A stretch of DNA of 64,000 bases from Cymodocea nodosa. Taxonomy: Eukaryota; Streptophyta; Magnoliopsida; Alismatales; Cymodoceaceae. The stretch covers positions 8,708,501 to 8,772,500 of the forward strand of contig CM072336.1 in assembly GCA_036874045.1 (NCBI GenBank), in the 5' to 3' direction. The position numbers and the translations under genes are program-made. Under the pieces are notes generated by a model, which did no database searches, was not told where the DNA came from, and was given only the letters and a program-made list of their open reading frames with translations. Positions 2,020-61,007 of this stretch are shown here, piece after piece; the stretch's first letter is position 1; every line of letters starts with the position of its first letter.

Positions 2020-2269
2020 TGTTTAGAATGAAAAAGTACATAATATTAATGGTTAATTGCATAATATTTAGATTATCATATGAGAATTAAGCTATTATGT
2101 CATAATTATACGATTACATGCCTTAATTACAGAATATGCATAATTTCAAGAAATTAGTGTTAATTAAATATCATTTCTAGAAGATTGAAAACTTGGTTTA
2201 CATGTGGTTTTATAGTATTAAGCATGATATGTTTTATTTGCACATATTTATATCATGTATAGTGCACGG

Positions 2270-2705
2270 TAACAACTCGTTGAGTTAGTGTTATTTTTGT
2301 AAAAAGATCATGTGCCAACTCGTTGAGTTACAAGTTTAAAGGTGTAAAAAGATCACATGAGAACTTGTTGAGTTAGTGAGCAAAACTATAAGTTGTATAT
2401 CTGAACTCGTTAAGTAACATTATACATGTGTTGAATTTAAATGTTATACTATATCACGTGAGTTGTACATGTTTAACTCGTTAAGTTAGCATAACTATAT
2501 GCATTGAATTACTTGATTAAATACTAAGGTAACAAGTTATGTTAGTGTTATAAGCTGATAAGTTATTTTTTTATTTCACGTGATACATATATTATTATTT
2601 ATATCAAGTCTATTGAGTTAAGCTTAACTCAATGAGGTAAGTCCATTGAGTTATAGTTAAGTCAACGAAGTAAGTCTGTTGAGTTACGTTAACTCCATAG
2701 ACTAG
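2270..2705. repeat. ACTCAACGA/TCGTTGAGT micro-repeat array
   Basis: Repeated units AACTCGTTGAGTTA, then alternating TCTATTGAGTTA, TAAGTCAACGAAGT and GTCTGTTGAGTTA. G-box-like words (CACGTGA, CATGTG, CACATG) sit between units. The array lies inside the family G LTR, in the part corresponding to 58020-58385. Confidence 0.8.
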
Positions 2706-3684
2706 TTATTTGCTAATATTCAAATGTGAGTAATTGCAGAAACAAGAAATTCGAAGGAAAACTATGATTACACGTATCTTGTAGGATTTAACTCATGGAA
2801 TGAAGAAAAAATCACCATCGTTGATACGAATGAAGGAGATCCAACCGATCATTTAGGCGGATGCAATTACTATTGAAAGAAATATAAAAGGAAAAGAGAA
2901 AGAATGAAGGATGAGTGTGGGGAACCGCGCTAACTACAGCAAGTGTTAGTTGTTTCTTGAAGTTCCACCAAAACCACACTACCAATCACCAATCACCAAT
3001 CATCGAAGGTTTGTGAGGATACTTTCTAGATGTCAGGTCGATTTCAAGCCAAACACGGTGATTGACAATCATTGTGAGGAGTGATCACGTCCTAGGAAGG
3101 GAAGTCATTTTCACAAAGCATCGAATCATCTCTTAAGAGATAATAAAGCTTTTAGCCTTGCTTTGGGTTGATGCTAATATACTAAAGAGGAGATCAACTT
3201 ACAAGTCTTGGTTTGCAATTCTATAGGGAGAGGGACGCGTGATAGTAAGTGATTAAGTTTTCAGTGGTGTAATTGCATCGCATATACTGACGAGAGTTTT
3301 TACTATCAATAGAGAATTTTACATTTTACATTTCATTCATCTTTAGGAACATATCATAACAAAAACAAACCAAAAACTCATTATCTATTTTTATATTTAT
3401 CAAATTAGTGTTGTATTGTTTGTTTTGTATTGTTAGTAATGTTAGTATTGTCAGTATTTGTTAGGACTAGGCTACCATTATGCCAAAATCTTGAGCTGAT
3501 AGCAAAGGCGTTACCAATCCTTTTAAGTAAGCCTAGAAACTCTCACAAGTCCGAGTTCGTGGGAGGAATCATTAGGATTAACCCCCTTCTCTCATAGGTC
3601 CCTAAGGCCTTCTCCCTTCACCCTCCAAGTCCTTTAGGTCCCTCAGCCTGTCACCCCTCGAGTCCCTCAACAGGTTTCTCAACA

Positions 3685-3696
3685 ATCCCCCCCTTA
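3685..3696 (-). promoter_or_regulatory. TRIM polypurine tract
   Basis: The minus strand reads AAGGGGGGGAT immediately before the LTR start TGTTGAGAAACC, the normal place for plus-strand priming in an LTR element transcribed from the minus strand. Confidence 0.8.
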
Positions 3697-3748
3697 AAAA
3701 ATGCATCCCATACTGCATTCTCGTGGATTCGAACCCACATCTGTGAGT

Positions 3749-3763
3749 AGGCTTTGATACCAC
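3749..3763 (-). promoter_or_regulatory. TRIM primer-binding site (initiator tRNA-Met)
   Basis: The minus strand reads TGGTATCAAAGCC directly after the LTR end CCTAACA; canonical plant sites read TGGTATCAGAGC. A tRNA T-arm-like word, GTGGGTTCGAATCCAC, follows about 15 bases downstream in the 80-bp centre. Confidence 0.85.
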
Positions 3764-4254
3764 TTGTTAGGACCGGACTACCATTATGCCAAAAGCTCGA
3801 GTTGATAGCAAAGGCGTTACCAATCCTTTTAAGTAAGCCTAGAAACTCTCACAAGTCCAAGTTCGTGGGAGGAACCATTAGGATTAACCCCCTTCTCCCA
3901 TAGGTCCCTAAGGCCTTCTTCCTTCACCCTCCAAGTCCTTCAGGTTCCTCAGCCCGTCACCCCTCGAGTCCCTCAACAGGTTCCTCAATAGTATTGTTGA
4001 ATATTTTATGTTTATTTCATTCTAGAAAATAGAAAATCATCTTACTGATTACTGAAACTAGTTCGTATTCAATTCTAAAATCTTGATTAATATGATTACT
4101 GTTTGAAATATCTGAATGTCAATGTTTATTAATGATAAATACTATATAAACTAACATTAAAAGTTTAATTGATTTGTTTACATTTTATGAAACCACCCAA
4201 TGGATGACCAAATTTCTCTATGAATAGCAAATTTAATTGAAAGTTACTAGTGAG

Positions 4255-4330
4255 GCATGTGAAGTTAACTTAAGTCCACGAAGATAGTCTGTTGAGTTAG
4301 CAGTAAGTCAACGAAGTACATAATTCAACA
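4255..4330. repeat. ACTCAACGA micro-repeat, short array
   Basis: The stretch contains AAGTCCACGAAGATAGTC, GTTGAGTTAG and AAGTCAACGAAGTA in alternating orientation. It lies in the distal part of the family G LTR, after the TRIM. Confidence 0.7.
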
Positions 4331-4542
4331 CATATAAACCTCTAACTATAAAAATCAAAATAGTACAAACTTTTTACTCGGTCTCTGTGGGATTGACTTG
4401 TACTTGCACATTTATGCAATAGACACTATGCACTTGTAGTTAAAAAATAAATTAGATGTAATATCTAATTTGTAGAAATAATTTGTTTACTTTTAAAAGA
4501 AATTATAAACATATATTTAAGCAAACAAAATTCACCAAATAG

Positions 4543-6331
4543 ACATCCTTTAACAAATTAATCAAAGGTCTAGTTATTTTACTAAAATCTTTGATAAATC
4601 TCTTGTAAAATCCTGTATGTCTTAAAAATAATTTAATATCTTTTACTGATTTAGGTTTTGGTAAATTTGAAATAACTTCTATTTTGGCTTTATCTACCTT
4701 TAGTCTTTTCATTGAAACAACATGTCTTAAGATTATTCCTTGTTTCACCATAAAATGTCATTTTTCCCAATTCAAAACCAAATTTTTCTCCACATAATGG
4801 CTCAACACGAGTTCTAATTTCTTTAAACATACTTCAAATGAAGTTTCATGTACTATAAAATCATCCATGAATATTTCTAGAAAATCTTCAATTATTCTAG
4901 TAAAAATACCCTGCATACACCTTTGAAAAGTAACTAGTGCATTGCACAATCCAAATGACATTCTTTTAAATGCATAAGTTCCATTAGGACATGTAAAAGT
5001 TGTTTTCTTTTAATCCTCTAATACTATTGGAACTTGGTTATATCTTGAATACCCATCTTAGAAATAAAAATATTCCTGACTTGCTAATTTTTCTAACATT
5101 TGATCTAAAAATGGTAAAGAAAAATGATCTTTCTTAGTCACAACATTCAACTTCCTATAATCTATATACACTCTCTAGCCTAATTAGATTCTTGTTGGAA
5201 TCAATTCTTAATTTTCATTCCTAATAACTGTTATCCCTGATTTCTTAGGAACGACATGGATTGGACTAACTCATGAGTTGTTAGAAATCGGATATATGAT
5301 ATCATTATCTAATTATTTCATAATTTCTTTCTTGACTACTTTAAGGTTTGGATTTAATCTATGTTCAAGAATTCTTATTAGTTCAACATTTTCTTCTAGA
5401 TATATATGATGTCGACATATAGTTAGACTTAACCCTTTTATATTAGCCATAGTCTAGACTATTTCTTCTTTATATTTCTTTACTACACATTCTAATTTAG
5501 AATTCTGATCTTTTAAATCTGATGATATAATGATAGGACACATCATTTCTTTCCCAAGAAATCTATATGTCAACTCAGGAGATAATGGTTTTAATTCTAG
5601 ATGCTGATCATTAGCAACCAAAGCTCCTAATTTAACATTTTCATCCCTAGCATCAAATTCGTCTTGAACTCTTTTTACTTTTATGCTTAAATCTTTATCT
5701 ACATTTTCACTCTCTTCAAGATTTTTGGTATCCAATTATCTATTTAATTCTTCTTGAATTAAATCTTCTAACACATCTCTTTCATCCTCTAGAAAGTTTA
5801 TAGTGTTTAAAGATATGTCTATACCTTCATTCTCTTCTAGTTTGAAAATATTTAGTTGAGTATCCTCATTACCATAGGCTAATTTTGTCATTCCACTTTT
5901 ACAGTTTATAATTGCCTCTAAAGTTGCTAGAAATGACCTTTCCAAAATTAAAGATGTACCTCTATTCTAATTCATAGTTTTTTGGGAATCTAAAACAACA
6001 ATATCCATAGGATAAATGAAGTTCTTAACTTTAATCAAAACATCATCTTTTTTCCTCTAGGGTATCTTATACTACAATCTACTAATTGAATGATAGTACT
6101 AGTAGGATTTAAGCCTTCTGATCCTAGGGATACAAATATATCACTTGACATAACATTTACACTTGCACTTAGGTTTATTAAGGTTTTATCCAAAATTGTA
6201 TTACTTATTGTGCACGATATAATAGGTATTCTTGGATCAGATAATTTTTTTGGAATCTAAGATAGAAATAAAGAACTACTTTGCTCTACTAAAAAGACTT
6301 TTTTCAACACTTTCCTCTCTCTTCTTAGTAT
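4543..6331 (-). pseudogene. Athila-type pol relic: reverse transcriptase, protease, gag end
   Basis: This is the upstream half of the relic at 195-2019. Reading the minus strand from 6331 downward it has the gag tail, the protease region ending in SFLATLEAIINCKSGMTKLAYGNED (about 5940-5860), a linker, and the RT with the catalytic motif FMDDF (about 4870) preceded by MSFGLCNA. It lines up with 53780-55540 throughout. Frameshifts and stops interrupt every domain. A copia element cuts it at 6331, in the same sequence context as 55540 of the better copy. Confidence 0.85.
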
Positions 6332-7009: not shown

Positions 7010-7115
7010 TGAACGAGTCCGTTGAGTAAAGCTTAACTCAACGAGGTTGGTACGTTGAGTTACAATTAAGTCAACAGAGTAAGTCTGTTGAGTTACAACT
7101 AACTCCATGAATCAG
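7010..7115. repeat. ACTCAACGA micro-repeat array in copia LTR
   Basis: In order: GAGTCCGTTGAGTAAAGC, TTAACTCAACGAGGT, ACGTTGAGTTACAAT, TAAGTCAACAGAGT, CTGTTGAGTTACAAC, TAACTCCATG. Orientation alternates at each step. The array sits in a copia LTR although the same motif is common in gypsy LTRs. Confidence 0.8.
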
Positions 7116-11892: not shown

Positions 11893-12000
11893 ACTCAGTT
11901 GATTTATTATTAACTCAATGAATTAAGTTCGTGGAGTTACTATTAACTCAATGGACTACCCTTATTGAGTTATAGTTAACTCAATGAGCTTTTTGGTAAC
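11893..12000. repeat. ACTCAACGA micro-repeat array
   Basis: TTAACTCAATGAATTAAGTTCGTGGAGTTACTATTAACTCAATGGACT...ATTGAGTTATAGTTAACTCAATGAGC: alternating words in the family G LTR. The copy 2 equivalent is 19705-19820. Confidence 0.75.
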
Positions 12001-19514: not shown

Positions 19515-21140
19515 AAGTGTATTTTTTTATAAGTAATAAGCAATTTCACGAATAAGATTTAATTTTGGTAACTTAGTTCGTTAAATTGACTACAAGTACA
19601 CAACATCTATTGTATAAGTATGCAAAAACAAGTCGAACCCATAGGGAATGGTTGAAATTAATTTGACTGTTTAAATTTTCATAGCCAGAGTTTAGTGTAT
19701 ACTACAATTTGCTCACTTGGTTGATTTATTGTTAACTTAACGAACTAAGTTCATGGAGTTACTATTAACTCAATGGACTACCCTTATTGAGTTACAGTTA
19801 ACTCAATGAGCTCTTTGGTAACTTCCTATTAATATTATTGATTGCAGAAGAATATAGCCATCCATTGGGCAATTCTATATATTGCAAACATCTTTTACAC
19901 TCTTCAAATGCTATTTTATATTAGATTTATCACTAATCAATTCTAGCATTCAAATATTCCAAATAGTAAACAAATCAGTCATGGTTTTAGAGATTTATAC
20001 TAATTATTTTCTATATTAAATCATATGATTTTGTATTAACTGAAATATGATAAACACAAAACATTTAAACAAACACATATGATACAAACATAGATTTTGA
20101 TAAACACAATGATGTAAATGTAAACATATATTGGTTTTTATTTTTGTTTTGTTCCTCAAGATGAACGATTCATGAAAGGTAAAATTCTCTATTGACAATA
20201 AAAGAAATTTCTATCACTACATGCGACACGATTATACCTTTGAAAAGTTAATCACTTATTGTCAAATGCTCCTCTCCCTATTAGATTGCGAATTTAGACT
20301 TTTGTAAGTTGATCTCTTCTTCATCATAACAACATCAACCTGAAACCAAGACTAGAAATTTTATTATCTTTTGAGAGATGATTCAATGCTTGGTGAAAAT
20401 GTCCTTCCTTTCTATGATGTAATCAATCCTCACAATGGTTGTTAGTCACTTTGTTTTGCTCGAAATTGACCTGACATCTAGAAAGTATTCTCATAGACCT
20501 CCGATGGATGGTGGTATTGGTGGGAGCTCAAGAAACATTCGACGCTTTCTATAATGAGCGTAGTTCTCCCCCACCCCCTTACCTTTCTTCGTTCTTTCTC
20601 CTTTTTTTTTATATTTCTTTCTCGTAATAACTACTTCCGCCTAAATCACTAGTTGGATTGCCTTCATTCATATCAACGATGGTAATTACTTCTTCATTTC
20701 ACGATTGAGATCATGGCATGATTCATGCAATGTAGTTTCCTTCGAATTTTCGACAACTACTCACAATTGAATATTAGAAAATAACTAGTTCGTGGAGTTA
20801 GTGTAGCTCAATGGACTTACTTCATTGACTTATCTATTAACTTAACGAACCGACCTCATAGAGTTACAACTTTAACTCAACGGACTCATTCAGTTCTATA
20901 GTATAACAAAATAATTACATATATAACATTTAACACTTAATATGTAAAAGAAATAATTTCTAATCATACTTAAATAATACTTAATTAACTACTAATTCTT
21001 CTAATTTATGCACATTCTTTAATTAATGCTTATAATTGTATAATTGTAACATAATGACTTAATTCTCATATAATAAACTAAATATTATGAAATTGACCAT
21101 TCATTAATTGCTAATATTATGCATAATTTCATTCTAAATA
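19515..21140 (-). mobile_element. Gypsy family G LTR, copy 2
   Basis: Plus-strand reading matches 56740-58671 in order: ACTACAAGTACACAACATCTATTGTATAAGTATGC, GGTCGAACCCATAGGGAATGG-like words, the stretch TAGATTGCGAATTTAGAC with the TCATCATAACAACATCAACCTGAAACCAAGACTAGAA block (20287-20370), then the end TTTCATTCTAAATA (21140). It sits inside the transposon-protein relic. Arrays of ACTCAACGA words are at 19705-19820 and 20785-20895. Confidence 0.75.
20785..20895. repeat. ACTCAACGA micro-repeat array
   Basis: AGTTCGTGGAGTTAGTGTAGCTCAATGGACTTACTTCATTGACTTATCTATTAACTTAACGAACCGACC and CATAGAGTTACAACTTTAACTCAACGGACTC: alternating words in the family G LTR, deleted from copy 1. Confidence 0.75.
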
Positions 21141-35567: not shown

Positions 35568-36510
35568 TGTGTAGGATTGAATGGCTACACAAGAGGGGGG
35601 TGAATTGTGTTTTTCAACATTTTCAATTATAATTGAAACTTCAAAATTAAAAACTAGTCAAGAAACTGTTTTAATCAAATCATTTTATTCAAGGTTTCAA
35701 TTACAATATACAATTGCATTCTCTTCAGAAATTGTAGATACAATTATATAATGATACCATGTTTTATCTAATCAATTTCATAACTATAAACAGAGAAAAC
35801 TAATTTTTAGAATTTAAAACATTTCTCCTTGTTTGAGATTTTTCTTTTTCTTCTGCAAATCTTCAGTGACTAATATCTGACCTTTTCTATTACACTGAAT
35901 TTGCTTTCTTTTGATTCTTCAATTCTTTAGTGACATATATTTGACTTTCTCTTCTTCATTGAATTTTCTTTTATCTAAGAGCTTTTCCCTATAGAGGTGT
36001 TTTGATCTCTGAAAATATATTTCGTTTGGTGTGTAGGGATGATTGATCAACGAGAATTCTATGCCTTTTATACTGTATTTTCATTTCATGCATATCTTCT
36101 ACATTTAACCACAATCAGTTTCTCACTCTTCATGTCTTCTCTTTTTCCTTCATCAAAATACACACGTTCTGACCTACGTTTTCCTCTCAAATTTTCTTTA
36201 ATCATCAATCCTAGATCTTTGAAAAATTTCTTGCAAAATAAACTTTCTCATTTAAAATTTTTCATCAAATGTAATAAGAAGTCGTTGTGTTAATGTTAAC
36301 TAAAGGAGTAAAATAAGTAGAATTATAACTTAACGAGTTCATCATGTGCCAAATCACGTGACAAGGTATATAGCTAACTCAATGAACTAAGTCTGTGGTG
36401 TTACACTAACTTAACGAACCAGCTTCATAGTGTTACAATTAACTCAACGAACTAACTTCGTTGTGTTACTGATAACTCAACAAACCAGTAATAAATAAAT
36501 GTTTTAAACA
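35568..36510 (-). mobile_element. Copia LTR family A, left copy
   Basis: On the minus strand it starts TGTTTAAAACATTTATTTATTACTGG (36510) and ends ATTCACCCCCCTCTTGTGTAGCCATTCAATCCTACACA (35568). It directly abuts copia integrase sequence with no polypurine tract, so the element has lost RT, RNase H and 3' region. ACTCAACGA micro-repeats occupy 36330-36490. The right copy is at 60054-61007. Confidence 0.8.
36330..36490. repeat. ACTCAACGA micro-repeat array in copia LTR A
   Basis: AACTTAACGAGTTCATCATGTG, AATCACGTGAC, CTAACTCAATGAACTAAGTCTGTGGTGTTAC, TAACTTAACGAACCAGCTTCATAGTGTTACAATTAACTCAACGAACTAACTTCGTTGTGTTAC: alternating arms beside a G-box. Confidence 0.8.
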
Positions 36511-43692: not shown

Positions 43693-43762
43693 GTTTCGTT
43701 GACTTACACCTAACTCAACGAACTTAATTCGTTGAGTTGATGAATAACTCCACGAACTGAGT
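43693..43762. repeat. ACTCAACGA micro-repeat array in putative intron
   Basis: TTCGTTGACTTACACCTAACTCAACGAACTTAATTCGTTGAGTTGATGAATAACTCCACGAACTGAG: four alternating arms. It lies 30-100 bases beyond a good splice donor (43794-43799, minus strand). Confidence 0.8.
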
Positions 43763-44069: not shown

Positions 44070-45206
44070 TTAAGAACATGATTGAAAAGTAGTAACAAAT
44101 GGAATAAACGTGTCAGTCCAAGCAAACTTTTTTGGCATAATTCTTCTTGCTATTAATTCTATTTCAATGCAGTATATTTTCCTTTTTAATTTGTAAACTT
44201 GCAGTATGTTATCAATACTAAATATAAGTGTATTTCCATTAATGAAATGAAATGCAGAAATAGATCCTCTTCTGTTCCAATATAGTGTAGCTGTTTCTAT
44301 TTCTACATCTATTTCAATATATTCCTCTTCCCACTTCCATTCATTTAGGTCTTTTATAATCCATATTTGAAATTTCTTCAATTCATCCCACCATCTTATT
44401 AGACATAAAGTAGGATCATCATATTCATTATACCACATTCTTAATTGAATTTTATCATATTCTGCAGATGGTGGTTTAGCTATATCACTTGGTATAGGTA
44501 ATATTTTTATAAAATCGTCATAATTGTCTATGCTTACTATGTATAAATCAAATCTAAATGCAACTGATATATCTGTGACTAGATATATATATCTATCAAG
44601 TATGACATGTATGTTGTTAATTAATGATTTCTGTCTTAGATATATCATAGTATTTTCAGTCCAAGATCTATTTAGAAAATTATACACACTTAAGCATAAA
44701 TCTTCATCCCAATTTCCAGTTGGTCTCCAATAATATAATTTTTCAGGAATGATCAAATTTTTATCAGAAAATATTAAAGCTAACCCACAATTTTAAGTTG
44801 GTATTTCATATCTATTAGGCCTTCCTATATTCCATTCTTCTCTTGTGAGAGGATTTCTAATTAAAATATCAGGTAACAGAATTGCATACCTTGGTTTGGT
44901 TCTGTATATAATTAATTCTTCATCTATCCCCATAATATGATCTATTCCTTCTAATGTATTGGGTGGAATTCCAGCAGTTTCTTCCATATTCAGATATTCA
45001 TAGTTAATTGAACTACGATTAAATGACTTCCATAAAAATCCATCTTTAATCTTAGTCATTTTTGCAGCTTGTAGTCCATGAAAATATTTTTCTCTAACAT
45101 AGTCTTTAATATCCTTTGATACACAACACAATCTACATAGATCTTTAGCTGAAAAGTTACTCAGTACTTCCCTTAGTGCATCCTGCGATAATTTCATCAA
45201 TTCCAT
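44070..45206 (-). pseudogene. F-box protein gene with one in-frame stop
   Basis: From ATG at 45206 the minus strand is one frame to the stop at 44070, 377 codons plus a single internal TAA (44793-44795). Residues 4-40 form an F-box (LSQDALREVLSNFSAKDLCRLCCVSKDIKDYV), the part that binds SKP1 in SCF ubiquitin ligases. The rest is Trp/Tyr-rich, with patterns such as LIRNPLTREEWNIGRP and YYWRPTGNWDEDLCLSVYN, resembling plant F-box-associated beta-propeller regions that choose the substrate. One C-to-T change (CAA to TAA) would explain the stop. An intron-like segment with strong splice sites (45218-45360) precedes it. It is either a recent pseudogene or a truncated F-box protein of 137 residues. 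Confidence 0.75.
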
Positions 45207-45217
45207 CTGTTCTGATT

Positions 45218-45360
45218 CTGTATGACATAAACAAAAATTAATAGATACAAAATTAACATAGCTACTACACATCCTCGTGGAGTTAGGTTATAACTCAACG
45301 GACTAAGTTCGTTGAATTAAGTAATAACTCTACGATACTATTAACTATAAGTAAACTTAC
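45218..45360 (-). other. Putative 143-bp intron before the F-box exon
   Basis: Minus-strand donor GTAAGTTTAC (45360) and acceptor TTTGTTTATGTCATACAG (45218), ending 12 bases before the F-box ATG. Most of the intron body is an ACTCAACGA array (45272-45336). Confidence 0.5.
45272..45336. repeat. ACTCAACGA micro-repeat array
   Basis: CTCGTGGAGTTAGGTTATAACTCAACGGACTAAGTTCGTTGAATTAAGTAATAACTCTACGA: alternating arms inside the putative intron. Confidence 0.85.
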
Positions 45361-45424: not shown

Positions 45425-46766
45425 TCATTCGGTTACCCTTCTAGAGGAGGTGTCAATTTCATTAACAGTTTTGTTAACAGGGTTAGGTACTATTTGCATT
45501 GGCAATCCTCTAGTAGTTCTAACTTCTATTGATTCTTTCTGTCTAGGGGGTATATTTCTATTTATATTTTGATTTTGAATTGCAACATTTCCAAATACAA
45601 AATCTAGACGATTGTTTAATTGTTGAATTATCTTTTCTAACTTCTCTATTCTAGATCCTTGTTCAATCAATGCTTCATAATTTATATTCTTGTCATTTAT
45701 ATTTTCTCCTACTTGGAAATTGTTGTTTCTCCAAGATAAATTCGAGTGATTTCTCTAATTAGGGTTATATGAATTTCCAAAGTTATCTTTTTAGTTTCTA
45801 GCATAAATAATATCTAAGTCATTAACATTTGCACTTTTTTCTACTAGTTTCTGATTTAATGATAACTCTTCTATTTTCTTTGTTAATTCAATTAATTTAA
45901 CTTCAAGCATAGTGCTTGAATTTATTTCATGCATTCCCCTTGGCAATATTCTTTTATCTGCAATAACTTCAGCTGAGTTCTCCCACTATGCAATTCTTTT
46001 TGCAAAGTTTTCTAAGTATGCCCATGCTTCTTTACTACACAATTTTAAAAATCTATTCTGATAAGTAGATTCTAATAAAGATTTCATTGAAACATCTATG
46101 CCTTCATAAATTATACCTATCAATTGTGCTTTACTCATTGCATGATGTGGACATTGAGTCAGTAAATCTTTCAAAATATTTCTAGAATGATTCTCCTTAT
46201 TTTTGGCTACACATTAATATTTCCTTTTTCTTTTTAATTGTTTGATGTGTTGGATAATATTTTTCTAGAAAAACATAGCAAAATTCAATCCATGTAGAAA
46301 TTGAATCAGGCGACAGAGTATATAACCATTTCTTAGTTGTGTCTTTTAAAGCAAAAGGGATATATCTAAGTTTAATAGCATCTATACTCATGTTCGGCAT
46401 TTTCATTATTTGACAAACTTCGTTAAATTCTCTAAGGAAATAATAGGCATCCTCTTTTTCTAATCCATGAAAATGTGACAATTGACTAATATAATTAGAT
46501 TTCAATTCAAACTTATCTCTCTCAAAGTTTGGCAATCGAATACATGAAGGTTCATCAACTAATTCAGGATACAAAATTTCGCCTAATGGTTTCTCTACTA
46601 GAGCAGTCATATCTTTGTTTTCTTTTAAAGAAAGGTTAGCTACACCCTTAAGGATTTCGTTAAAGTCTAATTTAGATAATTTTTCAGTACGTCTCTGTGT
46701 TGAATAATCCTATGTAGGTGTTCTTACTAATCGTTTAGTGTTAGGAGAACGAATCCATGTGCTCAT
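45425..46766 (-). pseudogene. Athila-type gag, broken
   Basis: Starts MSTWIRSPNTKRLVR at 46766. After one stop the frame opens for 137 codons (46610-46197) with the gag core: SHFHGLEKEDAYYFLREFNEVC, IKLRYIPFALKDTTKKWLYTL, TWIEFCYVFLEKYYP. The core then continues in other frames (MKDLLTQCPHHAMSKAQLIGIIYEGID, 46174; SRIEKLEKIIQQLNNRL, 45670) to a stop at 45425. This matches the retrotransposon gag of Athila elements. Protease and pol do not follow; the F-box region does, so the element is truncated. It is separate from the pol at 50617-55470. Confidence 0.85.
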
Positions 46767-46935: not shown

Positions 46936-47104
46936 TCTATATTTATAATGCACGTCCATAAAGCAAATGAATCTCGTTGCAAGAACGTGACTTGTAACGT
47001 GCAGTATGGTTCCTACTTTTATGGTATGTGTGCCACTTTTAATTTCAAATTTCAGTAACTGCTAAACCCATGAAGTTTTGTTCGTGGCTAAAAGAATAAT
47101 CGTT

Positions 47105-47290
47105 TAGCTTAATCCACAAACTAACCTCGTTGAGTTACAAATAACTCAACGGAATAGCTTCGGTTACTGCTGCTAACTCCATGGACTAACTTCGTTGAGT
47201 TACAAATAACTCAACGGAGTCACCTTATACGATATTATTGACCTCGTGGAGTTAAGGTTAACTCAACGGACTTACTTCGTTGATTTAACA
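47105..47290. repeat. ACTCAACGA micro-repeat array, longest clean run
   Basis: CTAACCTCGTTGAGTTACAAATAACTCAACGG occurs twice with small changes, then GACCTCGTGGAGTTAAGGTTAACTCAACGGACTTACTTCGTTGA. There are at least seven arms, orientation alternating each time, about 25-40 bases apart. Confidence 0.9.
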
Positions 47291-47739
47291 CTTAGCAGAT
47301 TTTCTAAAACTTACTCCTCATATTAACTTCTATATATAAATTTTTCCTGCATTTTTCTAACTTAAATAAAATTAAATACATGTCATTAATGCATCATTCT
47401 AATTAAAACTCATTTAAATCTGAACATTATAAAAATATTTATCTTGCAGTTCATTTTATGTTATGTAGAATTTAAATTTTTCTTTGCAGTATGTAGATAT
47501 TTTTATGCATTAATCTGTAATTGGGCCTTTAATCTTGTCCTTCAGCAGATTGCATAATGTTTCACAATTTATATAATATTCAAGATAATTCATTCATTTA
47601 TATCATTCATTCACAAATAAGCATGTAAAAATATCTGAGAAGTATACATTCATTAATATGAATAGTTTTACATTTCATTCAGTCAGATATCTTTCATACA
47701 AATATAAGTACAAGTGGACGAACAATATAATTTAATCTC
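47291..47739. other. AT-rich non-coding spacer
   Basis: ATTCATTCATTTATATCATTCATTCAC and similar words; no gene seen. Confidence 0.4.
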
Positions 47740-49743
47740 TCTTCCTAAGTTCATCTACTTCCTTCTAGAGTTTTTCTAATTGTAGCTCTAATTGGTTAAT
47801 CCTTTCTATAGCTCCTGTAATTCCTCCAAAAGGTTCAGCAATTTCTGCAGCAGCATAGTTTCGGTACTCTTTTACTAAAATGGTTCTTGATCTTATCCTT
47901 TTGAATGCCCATTTAGTGAAATCGATACCGTTCACCATTAGTAGTGGAATTCAAATCTCCATAAAATAATTTTTTCTTCACTATTCTCAACTTGGAGATA
48001 AAAACTACAGACCAATTTATCTAAATTTTGTTTACAACTACATATGTGGCCCACTTGACAAATTGACTCAGTTTTATATCATGGCCTTGTCATTGGTAGA
48101 CATTCTTAATTAAAAAGTTAGCTATCATGTGTGCTTTACCATTTAACTGCTTTAGTCTATTTAATAATGGCACACTAGGATTGATAGCTAAACAATCCTT
48201 TATGGTCGATTCTATCCACTCGACTACAGTTGTGTCTTCATTTTTCAATCCTAGAATGTTATGGAGAAGCTCTGGTGTTATCTGTACATCAGCTTCCTCC
48301 ATGTTGGAAATTAATCCACTTTCTCCTTCTCTCAAATTTGCATAAAAGTAGGGCACTAGATTTTCATATACTACATGCTCTCTTTTTTGATAAATAAACT
48401 GCAGTAGACCTTGGAACTCAAATAAATCTTTGATTTCTTGCATTCTGTCCCAATTTACTGGTCTACTGTAAATGATATTATAACCCCTTATCTCTTGGTA
48501 TTTATTATAAGCTTCTTGACTCCAAAAGTGTACTTTATTTAAAATTGTTGTTTTAGTTGGGTCAGGAATGTGAATTTGTTGCTCTAGAGGGGTTCGTTCT
48601 TGAACTTACTCTTCCATAAGTTGAGCTTGAATTGGCTAGGAATGCTTGGTAGATTCCTTCATTTTTGCTTCTACTTTTGTTTGTGGTGGAGAGCCGACAA
48701 AACTCTCTACTCTGTCTTGAATGTTTTCTACAATTTGTTGAAGAGTTCTTTGCTCTTCAGTGGAATCTGTCGAGACATCTCTTTCCATATGTACTTGTTC
48801 AGCTTCCTATACGGTTCCTTCTTCTTCTTCTTCCTCCTGACTACCAATCTGCATTGTCACTGTTCTTTCTGATTCTGTGGCAGATTGGGATGGAGTTCCG
48901 GGCAAATCAACTTCTGCCCTAATTTTTGTTTCTTCTATTTGTACAGGTTGCAGATTAGTTTCAGCCTATTTTCCTTCTCTTCTCTCTTGCTGTTGCTGCT
49001 CCTGCTCCTCTTCAGAATCGAATAGTAGGTTTACAAAATTTGGCTCTACAAGCCCTATTGATATTTGTCTTTTAGATTTAATCTCTTCTTGATGTTCAAG
49101 CACTCTCTTTTCCTTTACTTTTTCTAATTAATTGTGCTTGGTCTTCCTCTTCCTCGTCTAAGATTAAATCCATAAAAATAGGCTCTATAAGCCTTTAAGC
49201 CACAGGTACTAGCTCTTCCTGTTTAATTTTTTCCATATTTACTAGTCTCGAAGGACTAGCTTCAGCTTCTCTTGCAGCACTTGATTTAGTTGCTTCCTGT
49301 TCAACTTTAATTTTGTACTAGACCCTCAACTTTTCTTCGACCCTTCTTTTCTTTATGGCATCATACAAAATATGTGCCTTGGCTATAGCTATTCCTTCTT
49401 TATCTCCTTGGTCTCTTGCTATTTTGACCAAGCTAGCAAACTCTTTATCTTCTTCTTCAATTCTCAGCCAAGCAAATGCTACTCGTGGTAATGGCTCTAT
49501 TGGCTGAACTAGAGGTCCTAGCTGCTGTTCCTCAGGGACAGGTCTTTCAATAGTCGGTTCCTCCTGTTCTTCTTCTACTTGTTGCTTCCGCCTCATTTCA
49601 CCCCTTGCACGACCAGTAATGCGCCTTTTGAACCATAATCTGGCCTTGCGCTGGATTAGCTCTAGGGCTACTTCGTTATTTGGCTTGATTTTTCTTTCTT
49701 TACTAATAGCAATTTTTATTGCTACTCTGATTATTGTTTCCAT
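47740..49743 (-). pseudogene. Glu/Gln-rich plant transposon-protein (Transposase_32-like) ORF
   Basis: A long minus-strand frame with several stops. The N-terminal piece is open for 141 codons (49743-49318): basic start, then Glu/Gln/Pro-rich (EEEQEEPTIERPVPEEQQ). A middle part rich in Glu includes a run of six Glu (about 48830). The domain at 48443-48090 is the best-preserved version of the putative plant transposon protein seen as relics at 10960 and 18770. A C-terminal coiled coil follows (IERINQLELQLEKL, about 47800). Such ORFs accompany Athila/Tat-type elements. Here it sits between the Athila integrase (50865) and an Athila gag (46766), so it could be the third ORF of the first element or a leader ORF of the second. 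Confidence 0.7.
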
Positions 49744-50097: not shown

Positions 50098-50222
50098 CGT
50101 GGAATTACGATTAACTCCACGAACTAAGTCCGTGGACTTAACTACAATACTCCGTTGAGTTATAGTTAGCTCAACAGGGTAAGTTCGTTAACTTATCCTA
50201 AACTCAACGAACTTCCCGTAAA
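50098..50222. repeat. ACTCAACGA micro-repeat array
   Basis: GTGGAATTACGATTAACTCCACGAACTAAGTCCGTGGACTTAACTACAATACTCCGTTGAGTTATAGTTAGCTCAACAGGGTAAGTTCGTTAACTTATCCTAAACTCAACGAAC: six or more alternating arms. Confidence 0.85.
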
Positions 50223-50616: not shown

Positions 50617-51600
50617 GTAAAGCTCGAGTAGTCCTCTACTCTTACTTCTTCTATAATTCCAAAGGAACTTTTTGGTATCTTCAAAATAGGTCTAAGTCTT
50701 TGTCCATTTATTTTAAATATGTTCTGATTTTTAAGATTTTCAATTTCAATAGCTCCATAGGGATAAATATTTCAAACTATGTAAGGTCCTACCCATCTAG
50801 ATCTTAATTTTCCTGGATAGTTATGGAGTCTAGTCATATAAAGGTTTTTGAAATAATTTTCTTATCATGCCAGAACTTCATTTTCTCTTACAATTTTTGA
50901 ATAAGCTTCATTCCTAAATTCTTCTAATTCAATCAATTGTATTTTCCCTTTTTCAGCCACTTGATTCAAATTAGTGTTCAGAGTTTTTAATGCCCAATTA
51001 GCTTTATGTTCAATTTCAGTTGGTAAATGACAACTTTTTCCATATACTAGCCTAAAAGGTGACATACCTAAGCTTGTCTTATAAGCAGTTCTATAAGCCC
51101 AAAGTGCATCTATCAATCTATTAGCCCAATCTGTTCTAGTAGGATTCACTACTTTTTCTAAGATTAGCTTAATTTGTTTGTTTGCACTTTCTACTTGTCC
51201 ACTAGTTTGCGGATGATATGATGTTGCAATTTTGTGGTTTACTCCATATTTCTTCATTAAGGCTTCAAAATTTCTATTACAGAAATGAGTTCCTCTATCA
51301 CTGATAATAACTTTAGGTATTCCAAATCTGGCAATTATATTGGTTCTTATAAAATGTATTACCACTTTGTTATCATTAGTTCTTGTAGGAATAACTTCTA
51401 TCCATTTAGATATATAATCCACCCCTAACAATATGTAATTAAATTGACTAGACATAGGAAATGGACCCATAAAATCTATTCCCCACACATCAAAGATTTC
51501 AACCTCAACAATAGGATTAAGAGGCAACATATTCCTCTTTGATATTCTTCCTATTTGTTGACACTTTAAACAGCTTAAGCAGTTGTTTGTGTTTTCCCAA
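50617..51600 (-). pseudogene. Athila-type integrase
   Basis: Open for 221 codons (51530-50865), preceded by [17 protein letters not shown] up to 51600. The catalytic D-D-E residues are readable: Asp in [10 protein letters not shown] (about 51480), Asp in ISDRGTHF (about 51290) and Glu in [17 protein letters not shown] (about 51195). It continues with the Athila-like [27 protein letters not shown] small deletion near 50845 shifts the frame, and the tail runs on to about 50617 (LRPILKIPKSSFGIIEEVRVED). Upstream it is cut from RNase H by an LTR fragment. Confidence 0.9.
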
Positions 51601-53042
51601 CACTACACTAGAAAAATTTGGATTTATTACTTTTGTTTTTACTTAGTTAATTTATCTTTATGCATATTCTTTCTTTTAGAAGTAAACAAACAACCTTTAA
51701 TACAATTTAGATATTAAGTCCAATTTGTACTTTAACTACAAGTGCATAGTGTCTATTGTATCAGTGTGCAAGTACAGGTCGATCCCATAGGGAATTGCTG
51801 AAGAACTTGAGAACTGTTCGTTTGTTAATAATCAAATTTATATATTCAATAAGCTCTCCATTGAATTACAGTTAACTCAACAGACAAAGTTTGTTGAGTT
51901 ATGGCTAACTCAACGGACTAACCTCCTAGACTTAAGTTAACTCCACAAGCCTGTCTTTTCTTTTTAATATTGCTATTTACAGAGGAATTCGGCCAACCAT
52001 TGGGCGATTCCACAGATTGTAATTAACATCAATTAAGCTCTTTAATGTTAGTTAACATTGGATTTATCATTAAGCAATACTAACATTCAGATAATTGAAA
52101 CAGTAACCATTAAAATCTTTAAGTTTTTTGAACGAATCAATTTCAGTAAACTGTAAAACTAAAACAAACATAAAACAATCACAACACTAACAAAGATAAC
52201 ATTAATCACGATACAACACAAACAATACAACACTCAAATACAACATACCAACATAGATAAATTGTTTTTGGTATTTTTGTTTTAATATGAACATGGAAAT
52301 GGGCGAAAGGTGAAATGTAAAGTAATCTCACTCAACAGTAAATACTTCCGACACTACTTGCAATGCAATTACACCACTGAAAATTAAACCACTTACAATT
52401 TTGTCTCCTCTTCCTATAGAATCGCGAGTCCAGAATTGCAAGATAATCTTCTCTTCAGCATACAGGCATCAACCCGAAGCCAAGGCTAAAAGCTTTACGA
52501 TCTCCTGAAATATGAGTCGGCGCTTGGTGAAAATGGGTTCCCTTCCCGCGACGCAATCACTCCTCATAGTGGTTGTCAGGCATTGTGTTTGGCTCGGAAT
52601 CGACCCAACATCAAGAAAGTATTCTCACAGACCTCCGATGGTTGGTGATTGTGGTGGTGGTAACGATGGTTGGTGTGATACTTCAGAGAATCGCCGATAC
52701 TATCTGTAGAAAGCTCGGTGCTTCTCCTCTGTATACATTGGTCATCCATCGATCACACCCTTTTTCTTTTTTTCTTCTTTTCTTTTACATTTCTTCAGTA
52801 GTAATTGATTCTACTTGAATGGTCGGTTGGATTTCCTTCATTCGTATCAACGGCGATGATTTCTTTTCCCTTCGACGATTGAATTCCTGCGTGATACGTG
52901 CAATTGTGGTTTTCCTTCCAACTGTCCTGTTTCTGCAACCGCTATAGTGGCATATTAGAAAATATAAAGAAATAAGCTGCTAACATAACGTGTTGCCTTA
53001 GTGTGTATTCATGTAACTTAACGCGTACAGTTATGCTAACTT
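51601..53042 (-). mobile_element. Gypsy LTR fragment between RNase H and integrase
   Basis: Matches the 5' LTR (56684-58671) from about 56710 to 58160 in the same orientation, including ACTACAAGTGCATAGTGTCTATTGTATC, GGTCGATCCCATAGGGAATTG and the block at 52430-52640. It lacks both LTR ends, and about 110 bases of pol are missing at the junction, so it entered by recombination or repair and not by integration. Confidence 0.85.
51850..51955. repeat. ACTCAACGA micro-repeat array
   Basis: CATTGAATTACAGTTAACTCAACAGACAAAGTTTGTTGAGTTATGGCTAACTCAACGGACTAACC: alternating arms in the LTR fragment, matching 56925-56985. Confidence 0.8.
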
Positions 53043-54801
53043 GGTCATGGCAGAAAGACAATATGCTCTGATATTCAGTTTCTGGAACACACCTCCTTAA
53101 AACTAGATCAAGACATTTCTTAAATAAGTATGGGTCTTCCCAATAGTAATATTTTACTCTTGAAAAGAACAATTTCTTATCTTGGATATTCCAATCTTTA
53201 GGTGTTAAACCAGTAACTAAGTAATTTACTATGTCTACATACCAAGGCATTATTTTGATAGTCATTAACTGTTCATCAAGAAAATTATCCTTAATTTCAA
53301 TATTTGATTTTTTTATTCGTAATCTTGATAAATGATCCGCTACTACATTCTCACAACCCTTTTTATCTTTAATTTCTAGATCAAATTCTTCTAATAATAA
53401 TATCCATCGGATCAATCTAGGTTTAGTCTCTTTCTTTGCTATTAGGTGTTTTAAAGCTGAATAATTCGTGTACACTATCACTTTAGCTCCAATCAGATAT
53501 GATCTAAACTTTTCTAAGGCAAACACAACGACTAACAACACTTTTTTAGTAGTTGTGTAATTAACTTGAGCATCATTTAAGGTTTTGCTTGTATAATGAA
53601 TCACTTTAGGAGATTTTTCTATCTTCTGTCCCAACATTGCTCCTACAGCAAAATCAGATGCATCGCACATTAATTCAAATAGATGGCTCCAATCAGGTGC
53701 TTGTATTATAGGAGTTGAAATTAAACTAGTTTTAAGCTTGAAAAATGCTTCTTTGTAATTTTTATCAAAGTTGAATGGGATATCTTTTAATAGATTAGTT
53801 AAAGGTCTAGCTATTTTGCTAAAATCTTTAATAAATCTTTTATAAAATCTAGCATGTCCTAGAAATAATCTAATATCTTTTACTGATTTAGGTTCTGGTA
53901 GATTAGAAATTACTTCTATTTTAGCTTTATCTACTTCCAACCCCTTCTTTGAAACAACATGTCCCAAGATGATTCCTTGATTAACCATGAAGTGACATTT
54001 TTCCCAATTTAGAACTAGATTTTTTTCCACACACCATTTTAATACTTGGTTTAAATTTTTTAAACATACTTCATATGAAGTTCCATAAACAGTAAAATCA
54101 TCCATAAATATTTCTAAAAAATCTTCACTTATTCCAGTGAATATGCCCTGCATATACCTTTGAAATGTGGCTGGTGCATTGCATAATCCGAATGGCATTC
54201 TCTTAAAAGCATAAGTTCCATTAGGATAGGTGAAAGTTGTTTTTTCTTGATCCTCTAATGCTACTGGAACTTGGTTATATCCTAAATACCCATCTAAAAA
54301 ACAAAAATATTCTTGCCCTGCTAATTTCTCTAGCATTTGATCTATAAAAGGTAAGGGAAAATGATCTTTCCTAGTTACAGCATTCAGCTTTCTATAGTCT
54401 ATACACACTCTCCAGCCTGATTGAATTCTAGTAGGTATCAAGTCCTGACTTTCATTCCTAATTACTGTTAATCCTGATTTCTTGGGAACTACATGGATTG
54501 GACTAACCCATGAGCTATCAGAAATCGAATAAATTATGTCATTATCTAACCATTTCACTATTTCCTTCCTGACTACTTCTTTAAGGTTTGGATTTAATCT
54601 CCTCTCAGGAATTCTAATTGGTTTAACATTCTCTTCTAAATATATGTGGTGACAGCATAAAGTTGCACTTAACCCTTTTATATCAGTCATAGTCCATCTT
54701 ATTGCTTCTTTATAAGTTTTTACTATATCTTTTAATTTAGCAATTTGATCCTCTTTTAAATCTGAAGCAATAATGATTGGACATGTTCGTTTTTCCTCCA
54801 A
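53043..54801 (-). pseudogene. Athila-type reverse transcriptase and RNase H
   Basis: A continuous frame, the best coding stretch of the element. Minus strand from 54801: linker, RT with [45 protein letters not shown] and the catalytic FMDDF (54093-54107), then [22 protein letters not shown]. The RNase H follows with the catalytic Asp in [13 protein letters not shown] (about 53660) and DHLSRL near its end. The frame reads into the LTR fragment after FCHDQ, giving some 30 foreign residues to 52942. This part could have been intact until recently; the integrase half is separated. Confidence 0.92.
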
Positions 54802-54843
54802 AAATATATAGGTTAAATCAGGAGGTAAAGACTTTAATTCTAA

Positions 54844-56657: not shown

Positions 56658-56676
56658 CTCCCCGGCAACGACACCA
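56658..56676 (-). promoter_or_regulatory. Gypsy primer-binding site
   Basis: The minus strand reads TGGTGTCGTTGCCGGGGAG seven bases after the LTR end CAAACA. It is a one-base variant of TGGCGCCGTTGCCGGGGA, common in plant Ty3/gypsy elements of the Athila/Tat group. Confidence 0.85.
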
Positions 56677-56924
56677 GAAAACTTGTTTGGGCTTGTTAAC
56701 TTCCGTTTGTAACTTAGTTAATTTATCTTTATGCTTATCAGTGATTCCTTTTTAGAAGTCAACAAACAATCTTTCACACAAATTAGATATTAATTCCAAT
56801 TTGTATTTTAACTACAAGTGCACAGTGTACATTGTATTTGTGTGCAAGTACAGGTCGATCCCACAGAGAATTGAGGTAGAACTATGTACTATTCCGTTTT
56901 TAATAATAAAATTTATATATTCAA

Positions 56925-56990
56925 TTAACACTCCGTTAAGTTATAGCTAACTCAATGGACTAACCTCGTGGAATTGAAGTGACTCAACGA
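56925..56990. repeat. ACTCAACGA micro-repeat array
   Basis: CTCCGTTAAGTTATAGCTAACTCAATGGACTAACCTCGTGGAATTGAAGTGACTCAACGAAGC: four arms in the U5-side part of the LTR. Confidence 0.8.
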
Positions 56991-58017
56991 AGCTATCTAT
57001 CTAGTTTAATATTGCTATTTACAGAGGAATTCGGTCAACTATTGGGCGGTTCAACAAATTGTAAATAACATCAATTAAGCTCTATAATGCTAGTTAATAT
57101 TAGATTTATCATTCAACAACAGTAACATTCAGATATTTCAAACAGTAACCATTAAAATCATTAAGTATTAGGAATGATTCAATTCAGTAAACTGTAAAAC
57201 TATTTTCTATTTTCTAAATTAAACAAACATGAAACATTCAAAGCACTAACAATGATAACATTAATCATGATACAAAACAAACAATACAACACTCAAATAC
57301 TAACTATAAACATAGATAAGTTGTTGTTGGTATTTTTTTGTTTTGATATGATCATGGAAATGGGCGAAAGGTGAAATGTAAAAGTAATCTCTATCGACAG
57401 TAAAAACTTCTGTCACTACATGCGACGCGATTACATCACTGAAAACTTAATCACTTACAATTCTGCCTCCTCTCCCTATAGAATCGCGAGTCCAGAATTG
57501 CAAGATGATCTCCTCTTCAATATACTAGCATCAACCCGAAACCAAGGCTAGAAGTTTCACGATCTCTTGAGATATGAGTCGGTGCTTGGTGAAAACAGCT
57601 TCCCTTCCCGCGACGCGATCACTCCTCATAGTGGTTGTTAGGCACTATGTTTGACTCGGAATTGACCTGACATCAAAAAAGTATCCTCACAAACCTCTGA
57701 TGGTTGGTGATTATGGTGTGATGGTTGTGGTGGTTGGTGTGGTACTTCAGGGAACTTCCTACGCTGCCTAAAGATAGCTTGGTTTGTCCTCCTCTACACA
57801 CACTGGTCACACCTTCTTCGTCTTTTCTCCTTTTCTTTTATATTTCTTTAGTGGTAACTGCTTCTACTTAGATGATCGGTTGGATTTCCTTCATTTATAT
57901 CAATGATGGTGATTTCTTCTCCCTTCCCCGAGTGAATTCCTACATGATATGTGCAATCGTAGTTTTCCTTTGAATGTCCTATTTCTGTAACCGCTACAGT
58001 GGCATATTAGAAAATAA

Positions 58018-58385
58018 ATGGTCCATGGAGTTACAGATAACTCAACGGACTTACTTTGTTGATTTAACTATAAAACATGTACAATAAAGAAATAAGCTGC
58101 TAACCTAACGCGTTACCTTAGTGTGTATTCATATAACTTAACGCGTACAGTTATGCTAACTTAACGAGTTAAACATGTGCATCTCACGTGACATAATAAA
58201 GCATTTAAATTCAACACGTGCATAAATCTAACTTAACGAGTTCAGATATATAACTTTAAGATTTTTACTCGCTAACTCAACGAGTTGTCACGTGATCTTT
58301 TTATACCTTTAAACCTGTAACTCAACGAGTTGGCACGTGATCTTTTAACAAAAAGAACACTAATTCAACGAGTTGTTACTGTTCA
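58018..58385. repeat. ACTCAACGA/AACGAGTT array with G-boxes in 5' LTR
   Basis: GTCCATGGAGTTACAGATAACTCAACGGACTTACTTTGTTGA, CTAACTTAACGAGTTAAACATGTGCATCTCACGTGAC, CTAACTTAACGAGTTCAG, GCTAACTCAACGAGTTGTCACGTGATC, GTAACTCAACGAGTTGGCACGTGATC, CTAATTCAACGAGTTG. The 3-4 late units each pair the motif with CACGTGA. This lies in the upstream (U3) side of the LTR when read on its own strand. Confidence 0.85.
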
Positions 58386-58929
58386 CCTAAATATTCTTTT
58401 AGCGTTTAAAACATAACTGTCCGGTACATGCAATATAACTCTCCGAAATAACAGAAAATTCGGATACTAAAGAATCAAAAACCAGCAACTTACCGACAGT
58501 TGAGAAATATATTAAATTAATGCTAATTCCTTGAAATTACGTAGATTCTTTCATTAAAGCATATAACAGTGCAATTATAACATAATAGCTTAATTTTCAT
58601 ATGATAAGCTAAATATTATGCAATTAACCATTATTTAACCATTAATACTATGCACTTTTTCATTCTAAACAAGTGCAATACTATGTGACCCTCTCTATCG
58701 CTTCCGGGCAATGCTCAACCAGGCATTTGCTTGCTTCATTCGTCATGAGTTCATGCTTCATTACCCATCACCCATGATACTTCATCTTCTCCATGGAGAT
58801 GGCAATGGAATTAATTCCTTGGAGATGGAATTAAACCTTTTAAATAAAAAAAAAGAGGTTTATAATATATCTAAATAAAAATTTGTATGACCTATATGCA
58901 TTTAAGGTAACCAAAAGATCTTTTTAGAT

Positions 58930-60053: not shown

Positions 60054-61007
60054 TGTGTAGGATCGAATGGCTACACAAGAGGGGGATGAATTATGTTTTT
60101 CAACATTTTCAATTATAATTGAAACTTCAAAATTAAAAACAAGTCAAGACACTGTTTTAATCAAATCATTTTATACAAGGTTTTAATTACAATATACAAT
60201 TCAATTCTCATATGAAATTGTAGATGCAATTATATAATGATACCATGTTTCATTTAATCAATTTCATAACTATAAATAGAGAAAACTAATTTACAGAATT
60301 TAAAACATTTCTCATTGTTTGAGATTTTTCTTTTTCTTCTGCAAATCTTCAGTGACTAATATCTGACTTTCTCTGTTTCACTGAATTTGCTTTCTTTTGA
60401 TTCTTCAATTCTTTAGTGACATATAATTGACTTTCTCTTCTTCATTGAATTTTCTTCTATCTATGAGCTTTTCCCTATAGAAGTGTTTTGATCCCTAAAA
60501 ATATATTTCGTTTGGTGTGCAGGGATGATTGATCAACGAGAATTCTATGCCTTTTATACTGTATCTTCATTTCATGCATATCTTCCACATTTAACCACAA
60601 TCAGTTTTCCACTCTTCATGTTTTCTCTTTTTCCTTCATCGAAATACACACGTTTTGACCCACGTTTTCCTCTCGAATTTTCTTTAATCATCAATCCTAG
60701 ATCTTTGAAAAATTTCTTGCAAAATAAACTTTCTCATCTAAAATTTTTCATCAAATGTAATAAGTCATTGTGTTAATGTTAACTAAACGAGTAAAACAAG
60801 TAGAATTATAACTTAACGTATATAACTTAACGAGTTCATCATGTGCCAAATCACGTGACAAGTAATATAGCTAACTCAATGAACTAAGTCTGTGGTGTTA
60901 CGCTAACTTAACGAACCAGCTTTATAGTGTTACAATTAACTCAACAAACTAACTCCATTGTGTTACTGATAACTCAACAAACCAGTAATAAATAAATATT
61001 TTAAACA
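60054..61007 (-). mobile_element. Copia LTR family A, right copy
   Basis: Minus strand TGTTTAAAATATTTATTTATTACTGG (61007) to GAATGG...CCTACACA (60054). It has the same abrupt contact with integrase as the left copy. ACTCAACGA micro-repeats at 60790-60985 include an extra short unit, CGTATATAACTTAACGAG. Confidence 0.8.
60790..60985. repeat. ACTCAACGA micro-repeat array in copia LTR A, right copy
   Basis: CTTAACGTATATAACTTAACGAGTTCATCATGTGCCAAATCACGTGACAAG, TAACTCAATGAACTAAGTCTGTGG, TTACAATTAACTCAACAAACTAACTCCATTGTGTTAC: alternating arms with a G-box between. Confidence 0.8.

Follow-up and report, generated by a model that had tools for sequence, protein, structure and literature searches.

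The window (the whole stretch of 64,000 nucleotides analyzed here, from contig CM072336.1 of the Cymodocea nodosa assembly) contains, on its minus strand, a gypsy retrotransposon whose 5′ LTR and primer binding site (PBS) are followed by a reverse transcriptase/RNase H frame, an integrase frame and a long post-integrase region that holds a gag frame and an F-box open reading frame (ORF). The reported array (class D) is one of several in the non-coding parts of that region, and others lie in gypsy and copia LTRs (Table 1). The window also holds a 1.84-kb inverted pair (29239–31078 and 42923–41092; 97% identity, 10 kb apart) and two direct duplications (9470–12432 with 17283–20254 and 13792–16086 with 21079–23375; 95–96% identity, 7.3–7.8 kb apart).

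Retrotransposons that carry the arrays

The gypsy family has the domain order PR-RT-RH-IN (the protease match is weak) and a PBS of the tRNA-Asp type. This order and this PBS mark Athila/Tat-like elements, and on those criteria the array-bearing family is Athila-like. A further mark of such elements, an extra ORF 3′ of the integrase, may also be present, as the frame at 48090–48605 has a weak PF20167 match (E 0.0011, below the Pfam cut-off). The gag-domain frame lies 3′ of the integrase, an unusual order that is contiguous in at least L018 (L numbers name stretches outside the window). At the site of the truncated same-family LTR nested in the element, another gypsy copy has 95 unaligned bases instead; we considered and rejected the idea that 51583–53042 is a DNA transposon with subterminal repeats, as its PBS-flanked relatives show a gypsy-family LTR.

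The interval 43302–50209 aligns end to end with positions 8225–1320 of L018 (83% over 7 kb), with further partial alignments to L014, L017, L021, L022 and L025. On this alignment, the F-box gene is element-borne. Thus, the initial annotation, which placed some arrays in apparent introns next to an F-box gene, was right that the sequence is intron-like, but the gene is carried by the gypsy element and is not a host neighbor. Between copies (NG86, few copies, leaving aside the meaningless pairing of the two non-overlapping halves of the window F-box), dN/dS is 0.34–0.57 for the F-box gene, similar to the 0.36–0.76 of gag, and 0.14–0.54 for the frame with the weak PF20167 match, and these ratios suggest that the F-box gene is probably kept by the element under some constraint. 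F-box proteins are common in plants; none of 2,259 candidate homologues of the L018 F-box ORF reached an E value of ≤0.001 in a search that we suspect had few plant proteins in reach. The element-borne protein could be a putative counter-defense candidate.

The copia LTRs end in AATTCACCCCCC..CCTACA at 7900, 12602 and 35566 and in AATTCATCCCCC at 60053, which fits the C-rich integrase signal near the 3′ end of Sirevirus LTRs as the available text of PMC2829016 describes it in words, not letters. CA followed by ACTGGTATCAGAGC at 12589 and CA followed by ATTTGGCATCAGAGC at 7902 are near, although not identical, to the Sirevirus CA/ATTGG plus TATCAGAGC given there. A Met-tRNA-type PBS follows the LTR ends at 7900 and 12602, one of them with a mismatch; the LTRs ending at 35566 and 60053 hold class C arrays and have no adjoining PBS, as in 3′ or solo LTRs. 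The copia LTRs that carry arrays look Sirevirus-like, and the 7016 array appears to lie in the one ending at 7900.

Arrays of at least three half-sites number 17 in the window; they include all 15 listed in the initial annotation, to which those at 2607 and 58229 are added. Most counts below come from a sample of 234 kb, made up of the window and 17 ten-kb stretches (those of 20 hand-picked positions that fell inside a contig, hence an arbitrary sample and not a random one). This sample holds 53 arrays, which fall by their flanks into classes A (19), B (7), C (7), C2 (5), C3 (2), D (6) and E (4), with three singles. Arrays of classes A and B and the window arrays of class C2 lie within the LTR of the one gypsy family and of its diverged relatives; the class D and E arrays and those at 45272 and 43693 occupy four internal non-coding positions in its post-integrase region; and the arrays of classes C and C3, the remaining C2 arrays and the 7016 array are inside copia LTRs. 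A flank is shared with another array of the same class in 50 of the 53 cases, two more arrays lie within the repeated gypsy region and one is in the presumed copia LTR, so that none of the 53 sampled arrays is free-standing.

Among the 17 stretches outside the window, 10 have arrays, one has two isolated hits and six have none. Pfam was run on seven frames from array-poor stretches and found a host enzyme in L009 (two frames), a lectin domain in L013 and the DDE nuclease of a DNA transposon in L020; single frames in L015, L016 and L023 gave no Pfam match. Not every transposon-bearing stretch therefore has arrays.

Table 1. Coordinates of arrays, LTRs and frames (window positions unless a stretch outside it is named)
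Feature	Position	Strand	Remarks
Solo LTR, gypsy family	2020..4560	+	ends approximate
Arrays in solo LTR	2274-2375 (C2), 2607-2703 (B), 4271-4317 (A)		
Array in presumed U3 of Sirevirus-like copia LTR	7016..7113	.	LTR end near 7900, start not located
Class A array	11911..11990	.	diverged LTR, gypsy lineage
Class A array	19733..19812	.	diverged LTR, gypsy lineage
Class B array	20787..20886	.	same diverged LTR as 19733..19812
Class C array	36279..36486	.	Sirevirus-like LTR with minus sense, ending near 35566
Array downstream of F-box ORF	43693..43758	.	four half-sites in window
F-box ORF	44070..45287	-	ATG ~45206; two frames in window; L018 6205-7449 (one open frame); L017 2214-3359
Array upstream of F-box ATG	45272..45319	.	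precedes ATACAG acceptor-like site; similar array by eye, same place, L018
Retrotransposon gag frame	46197..46709	-	post-integrase; L018 counterpart 4778-5825
Class D array (reported array)	47124..47287	.	8 scored half-sites, 164 bases; gypsy internal non-coding; six members in sample
Extra ORF	48090..48605	-	weak PF20167 match, E 0.0011, below Pfam cut-off
Class E array	50112..50213	.	gypsy internal non-coding, directly after integrase; four members in sample
Gypsy integrase frame	50865..51602	-	Pfam
Truncated same-family LTR nested in gypsy element	51583..53042	-	
Class A array in truncated LTR	51873-51951		
Gypsy reverse transcriptase/RNase H frame	52942..54843	-	Pfam
Primer binding site	56659..56676	-	18-mer, 2 mismatches to tRNA-Asp type
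Gypsy 5′ LTR	56683..58674	-	ends approximate
Class A array	56930..56993	.	gypsy 5′ LTR, PBS side
Class B array	58020..58066	.	gypsy LTR U3
Gypsy U3 segment homologous to Sirevirus-like LTRs	58099..58376	-	partners L001, L008, L012, L018, L022
Class C2 array	58229..58374	.	direct repeats TAACTCAACGAGTT and CACGTG words, period 43-45; within shared U3 segment
Class C array	60823..60983	.	second copy of LTR that holds 36279..36486 array; LTR end near 60053
TAACTATCCGAAA/TAACTCACCGAAA-type arrays	37821-38157, 13580-13666, L010 5335-5797, L014 8563-9063, L025 1181-1738		

The half-site and its phasing

The half-site is TAACTCAACGRACT (consensus TAACTCAACGAACT, with position 11 often G, position 7 often C and position 13 C or G), and it alternates head-to-head and tail-to-tail with a period of 33 bases, which Tandem Repeats Finder reported independently at 2606, 7033, 11894 and 36398. 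The 14-mer in the title of the initial annotation holds as a consensus, but within the window only 36440 and 43711 match it letter for letter, and no site matches its reverse complement exactly. The sample gave a head-to-head gap (+ then −) of 1 base in 76 of 83 pairs and a tail-to-tail gap (− then +) of 3, 4 or 5 bases in 22, 71 and 7 of 102 pairs (100 of 102 within 3–5). The two-half-site unit is 29 bases long and has the center CGGACT-W-AGTTCG. From start to start, the distance is 15 bases (+ then −) or mostly 17–19 (− then +), and the spacing of 20–40 bases given previously has to be corrected.

We scanned the 374.6 Mb of the genome (28 contigs) and found the exact 14-mer 9,235 + 9,046 = 18,281 times, compared with 4 + 3 = 7 times for the reversed word; these half-sites are not independent events, as copies share descent. 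The alternation of a word with its reverse complement, noted initially, is real, phased and beyond chance, a stronger pattern than first described. A tail-to-tail pair, defined as GTTGAGTTA, 0–14 bases and TAACTCAAC, occurs at 12,725 places genome-wide (reversed control, 0), and the gap is exactly 4 bases in 12,386 of them. Among the first 85 places listed, we counted 20 distinct strand-collapsed 4-base spacers, the commonest 19 times, many of these copies being alike by descent. In the sample, the half-site carries 0.8–2.1 bits of information per base (a figure inflated by choosing half-sites with a matrix) and the 4-base spacer 0.03–0.36.

The position weight matrix was trained on the window, with a threshold of about two sites per Markov-shuffled window, and scored 48 forward and 44 reverse half-sites there. 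Since it was trained and applied on the same window, we also ran it on the 17 other stretches and obtained 205 sites at a score of ≥13, whereas a single Markov shuffle per stretch gave 2 in total. Half-sites that the matrix missed but the phase predicted still match at a mean of 8.1 of 14 positions, versus 5.05 for the reversed word (n = 20, some of them copies by descent).

The array word is one member of a family of words. We counted the pattern TAACTNNNCG 301 times over 234 kb, versus 18, 10, 7, 6 and 17 times for five control patterns, its commoner middle triplets being CAA (85), TAA (48), ATC (39), CCA (25) and CAC (15), and TAACTNNNCGNA occurs 167,858 times genome-wide versus 17,053 for its reversed control. 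We also noted a second set of arrays, made of TAACTATCCGAAA/TAACTCACCGAAA-type words at another spacing (often 16 and about 26), some of them in the same kinds of LTR. In the U3 block at 58099–58376, CACGTG (G-box-like) words alternate with TAACTCAACGAGTT at a spacing of 43–45 bases.

Arrays vary between copies of a locus. The window copy of the 43693 array consists of four half-sites and the L018 copy of one pair; L022 has, by eye, a similar array, and L017 and L014 have lost the array, each keeping a remnant. At the array B locus, 9 of 16 aligned LTR copies carry the array; it is missing at one junction in w51, L003, one L010 copy, L014 and L019 and at another junction in the second L010 copy and one L022 copy. 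The array-less alleles look like internal deletions, and we saw no target duplication at them in the array B and 43693 comparisons. The central CG of 255 half-sites outside class C2 reads CG in 152, TG in 51, CA in 45 and TA in 7. With about 40% of half-sites lacking it, many array copies have probably been silenced earlier, in which case the CG would have been lost through methylated-CG decay.

Flanks, the U3 block and promoter setting

When gypsy U3 sequence (58099–58376 plus 2226–2598) was aligned with the copia LTRs of L001, L008, L012, L018 and L022, the longest pieces spanned 230–386 columns at 69–75%, and the L001 LTR, owing to a duplication, gave a second aligned piece at 76–80%. The alignment is in the same sense and extends through non-motif bases; a sixth copia LTR compared (in the window, at 60 kb) aligns with the gypsy U3 over at most 59 bases. 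As judged from this alignment, the U3 block is one exchanged or jointly inherited between gypsy and copia LTRs, and we read it as an apparent exchange, in either direction. Because the U3 segment is homologous, the arrays of gypsy and copia elements are only partly independent, and the earlier claim that shared descent cannot explain their presence in both superfamilies fails for this block. The claim is only half true: several other sites have arrays without a shared immediate flank across classes.

For classes A, D and E and for the 43693 and 45272 arrays, no cross-class match was found in the nearest 120 bases, even at an E value of 1e-3. Extending the flanks to 250 bases brought stray matches of the 43693 array with class A array 26 (L022, where the LTR is nested in the same gypsy region), of class A array 20 (L021) with C2 and of B array 42 with C2. 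The 47-base downstream flank of the 7016 array matches gypsy-type LTRs over 29–47 bases; it does so at an E value of ≤1e-3 in three of nine places (window 20787, L002, which overlaps L003, and L021), with weaker matches at window 2607, L022 and L012 and none at window 58020, L024 and L025, a hint of what may be a second piece shared by gypsy and copia. Since the word and its phase recur at sites without a shared flank, the exchange of a single block does not explain those sites. Nor do all arrays derive from one LTR segment, an outcome named beforehand as refuting, as several sites share no immediate flank across classes.

TATA-like words follow several arrays. In the sense direction, TATAAAAG lies about 177 bases downstream of the class B array at 58020 (TATAAAGG in L012) and 268 bases after the class C array of L012, and TATAAATA lies about 102 bases downstream of the 7016 array and 176 bases after array D (TATATATA in L018). 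Six contexts were examined (B, 7016, C, D, E and 45272; few and not chosen blind), and in four of them the word TATAAA[AT][AG] stands no more than about 270 bases past the array in one copy of the context or more. In the stretches examined, there is no such word after the class E or 45272 arrays, and the window copy of class C has one inside the array only. From a random sample point, the word occurs within 110, 180 or 270 bases downstream in 5.7, 8.7 and 12.5% of cases, so that its presence in four of six contexts is more than expected.

Candidate readers of the arrays

From the sites, their phasing, their retrotransposon setting in the sample and the shared U3 block, all of which are observed, we infer protein binding, activation and selection. 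The arrays are, we think probably, phased cis-regulatory modules of LTR retrotransposons bound by a sequence-specific protein that switches on transcription, in keeping with the initial annotation, whose candidate of a regulatory array in gypsy and copia LTRs alike is supported at the level of sequence. Slightly asymmetric 29-base units of two half-sites are clustered with a period of 33 bases, which is close to three turns of the helix, with several arrays some 100–270 bases upstream of a TATA-like word both in LTRs and in the gypsy internal region. The proposed DNA-binding protein, for which a host transcription factor is the likeliest choice, would bind the half-sites in this fixed geometry and so turn transcription on; array length changes through gain and loss of units. 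One U3 block is common to an Athila-like family of gypsy elements and a Sirevirus-like one of copia elements, and recurrence of the word at other gypsy sites without shared immediate flanks would be expected if the factor rewards its carriers. By analogy, a host MYB protein is a reasonable candidate for the putative binder, TAAC and CAAC being MYB-like cores. The tobacco LTR element Tto1 is activated by the host MYB protein NtMYB2 (as cited in PMC6762207), and the available text of that paper proposes MYB sites for Rider and, with NtMYB2, for Tto1.

Neighboring arms can pair, as noted initially, and the arrays could work instead as hairpins, in RNA or in DNA, that supply small RNAs or are recognized by silencing. 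The minus strand of 47105–47290 folds strongly relative to shuffles (z = −6.6), as a palindromic array must, a tight loop is compatible with the 4-base gap, and clusters of Sirevirus palindromes in maize draw small RNAs (according to the available text of PMC10760457). The arms themselves, however, mostly do not covary. Head-to-head partners are alike at 10.17 of 14 positions, below the 10.82 of partners shuffled within class (n = 69), and tail-to-tail partners at 10.74, the same as the shuffled 10.75 (n = 89). In tail-to-tail pairs (n = 93), position 4 has 25 one-sided changes and 1 two-sided change (21 C/G mismatches, G/G absent), and at position 10 the changes are one-sided in 35 pairs and two-sided in 2; positions 2, 7 and 12, by contrast, are alike above shuffled partners (z = 2.7, 2.7 and 4.1), which speaks for pairing. 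The head-to-head center is systematically asymmetric: across the 76 units, position 11 is A/G 56 times, A/A 18 times and G/G once, and position 13 is C/G 43 times. We therefore rejected the hairpin as the selected feature and regard a hairpin function as very unlikely; the regular asymmetry, together with a gap fixed in length and free in sequence, fits a protein dimer better than a stem.

Element-encoded anti-silencing is another way to account for arrays of this kind. They would then be targets of a VANC-like protein, copia elements would exploit the gypsy system and the diversified TAACTNNNCG words would reflect specificities that succeeded one another. In its favor are the motif arrays spread over several non-coding parts of a single element, the gain and loss of units, the family of related words and the extra gypsy ORFs, and the VANC-target arrays of VANDAL elements are likewise short, fast-changing motif arrays in non-coding parts with diversified words (PMC5735166, PMC10398659). 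VANDALs, however, are DNA transposons with a known element-encoded binder, and the VANC21 motifs are described, in the available text, with one orientation and as rare outside one family, whereas the arrays here alternate and span two superfamilies. None of the tested extra ORFs has a DNA-binding domain by Pfam (an extra-ORF predicted fold, at pLDDT 34, was uninformative), and we consider this reading unlikely. It is quite improbable, too, that the arrays are neutral tandem repeats carried along by successful elements, with a phase that is inherited and not selected. Most copies do share descent, and tandem arrays are common in plant LTR elements, e.g., Retand (available text of PMC11963269), but the spacers vary in letters and little in length while the half-sites stay alike, and the same phase is found at sites without immediate flank homology. 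A short repeat that inserts alone and spreads itself, one of the original candidates, would suit the very high copy number and the several unrelated sites; with no free-standing array among the 53 sampled, no target duplication seen and array-less alleles that resemble internal deletions, it is disfavored and we think it extremely improbable.

The nearest described system is that of the RM boxes of Sireviruses, which are palindromic, are clustered upstream of the TATA box and, in some elements, also precede an extra ORF (Bousios et al. 2010, PMC2829016). Like them, the arrays consist of a two-sided, high-copy, CG-containing motif clustered in LTRs (although the symmetry here is imperfect at the center), have further copies beside an extra ORF and occur in copia LTRs that are Sirevirus-like. 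Unlike them, as far as the available text goes, the arrays have a 29-base unit with fixed 33-base phasing and a gypsy family with its own PBS as the main carrier. RM boxes are called Sirevirus specific relative to classic copia elements, and a strict CGG-CCG signature is found in 12 of 13 Sirevirus elements (PMC2829016, available text). We considered identity with this CGG-CCG box and rejected it, as that signature calls for a G at position 11 of each half, a state seen in 1 of 76 units of the sample. Because neither the signature nor the Sirevirus restriction applies, we do not file the arrays as Sirevirus RM boxes. Sirevirus palindromes of maize also occur in Helitrons, i.e., one palindromic motif in two unrelated orders of elements, but the motif alone is reported in the available text (PMC10760457), whereas here a longer U3 stretch beyond the motif is also shared. 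The U3 region of Tnt1 likewise shows that LTR control regions evolve as modules, although within one copia superfamily in the part available (PMC1838419) and not between gypsy and copia. In the open full-text literature, as far as it was accessible, we recognized no published equivalent of the array or of a gypsy-copia U3 swap; what is new is the asymmetric unit with its phasing and the U3 block common to gypsy and copia.

A bolder form of these ideas, which we consider unlikely, is that a single code, TAACT-NNN-CG with an interchangeable middle, is used in gypsy and copia elements alike, that its reader is an element-encoded anti-silencing or activating protein and that promoter modules are traded. 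If it were true, unrelated retrotransposons would trade promoter modules while staying under one trans-acting system. Phased cis-regulatory modules bound by a protein, most likely from the host, remain our preferred reading. The control regions of plant retrotransposons are usually studied within a family, and here modules may cross superfamilies. The 18,281 exact half-sites and the defined unit of 33 bases allow a direct search for the binding factor, and one protein may govern much of the retrotransposon load of this genome.
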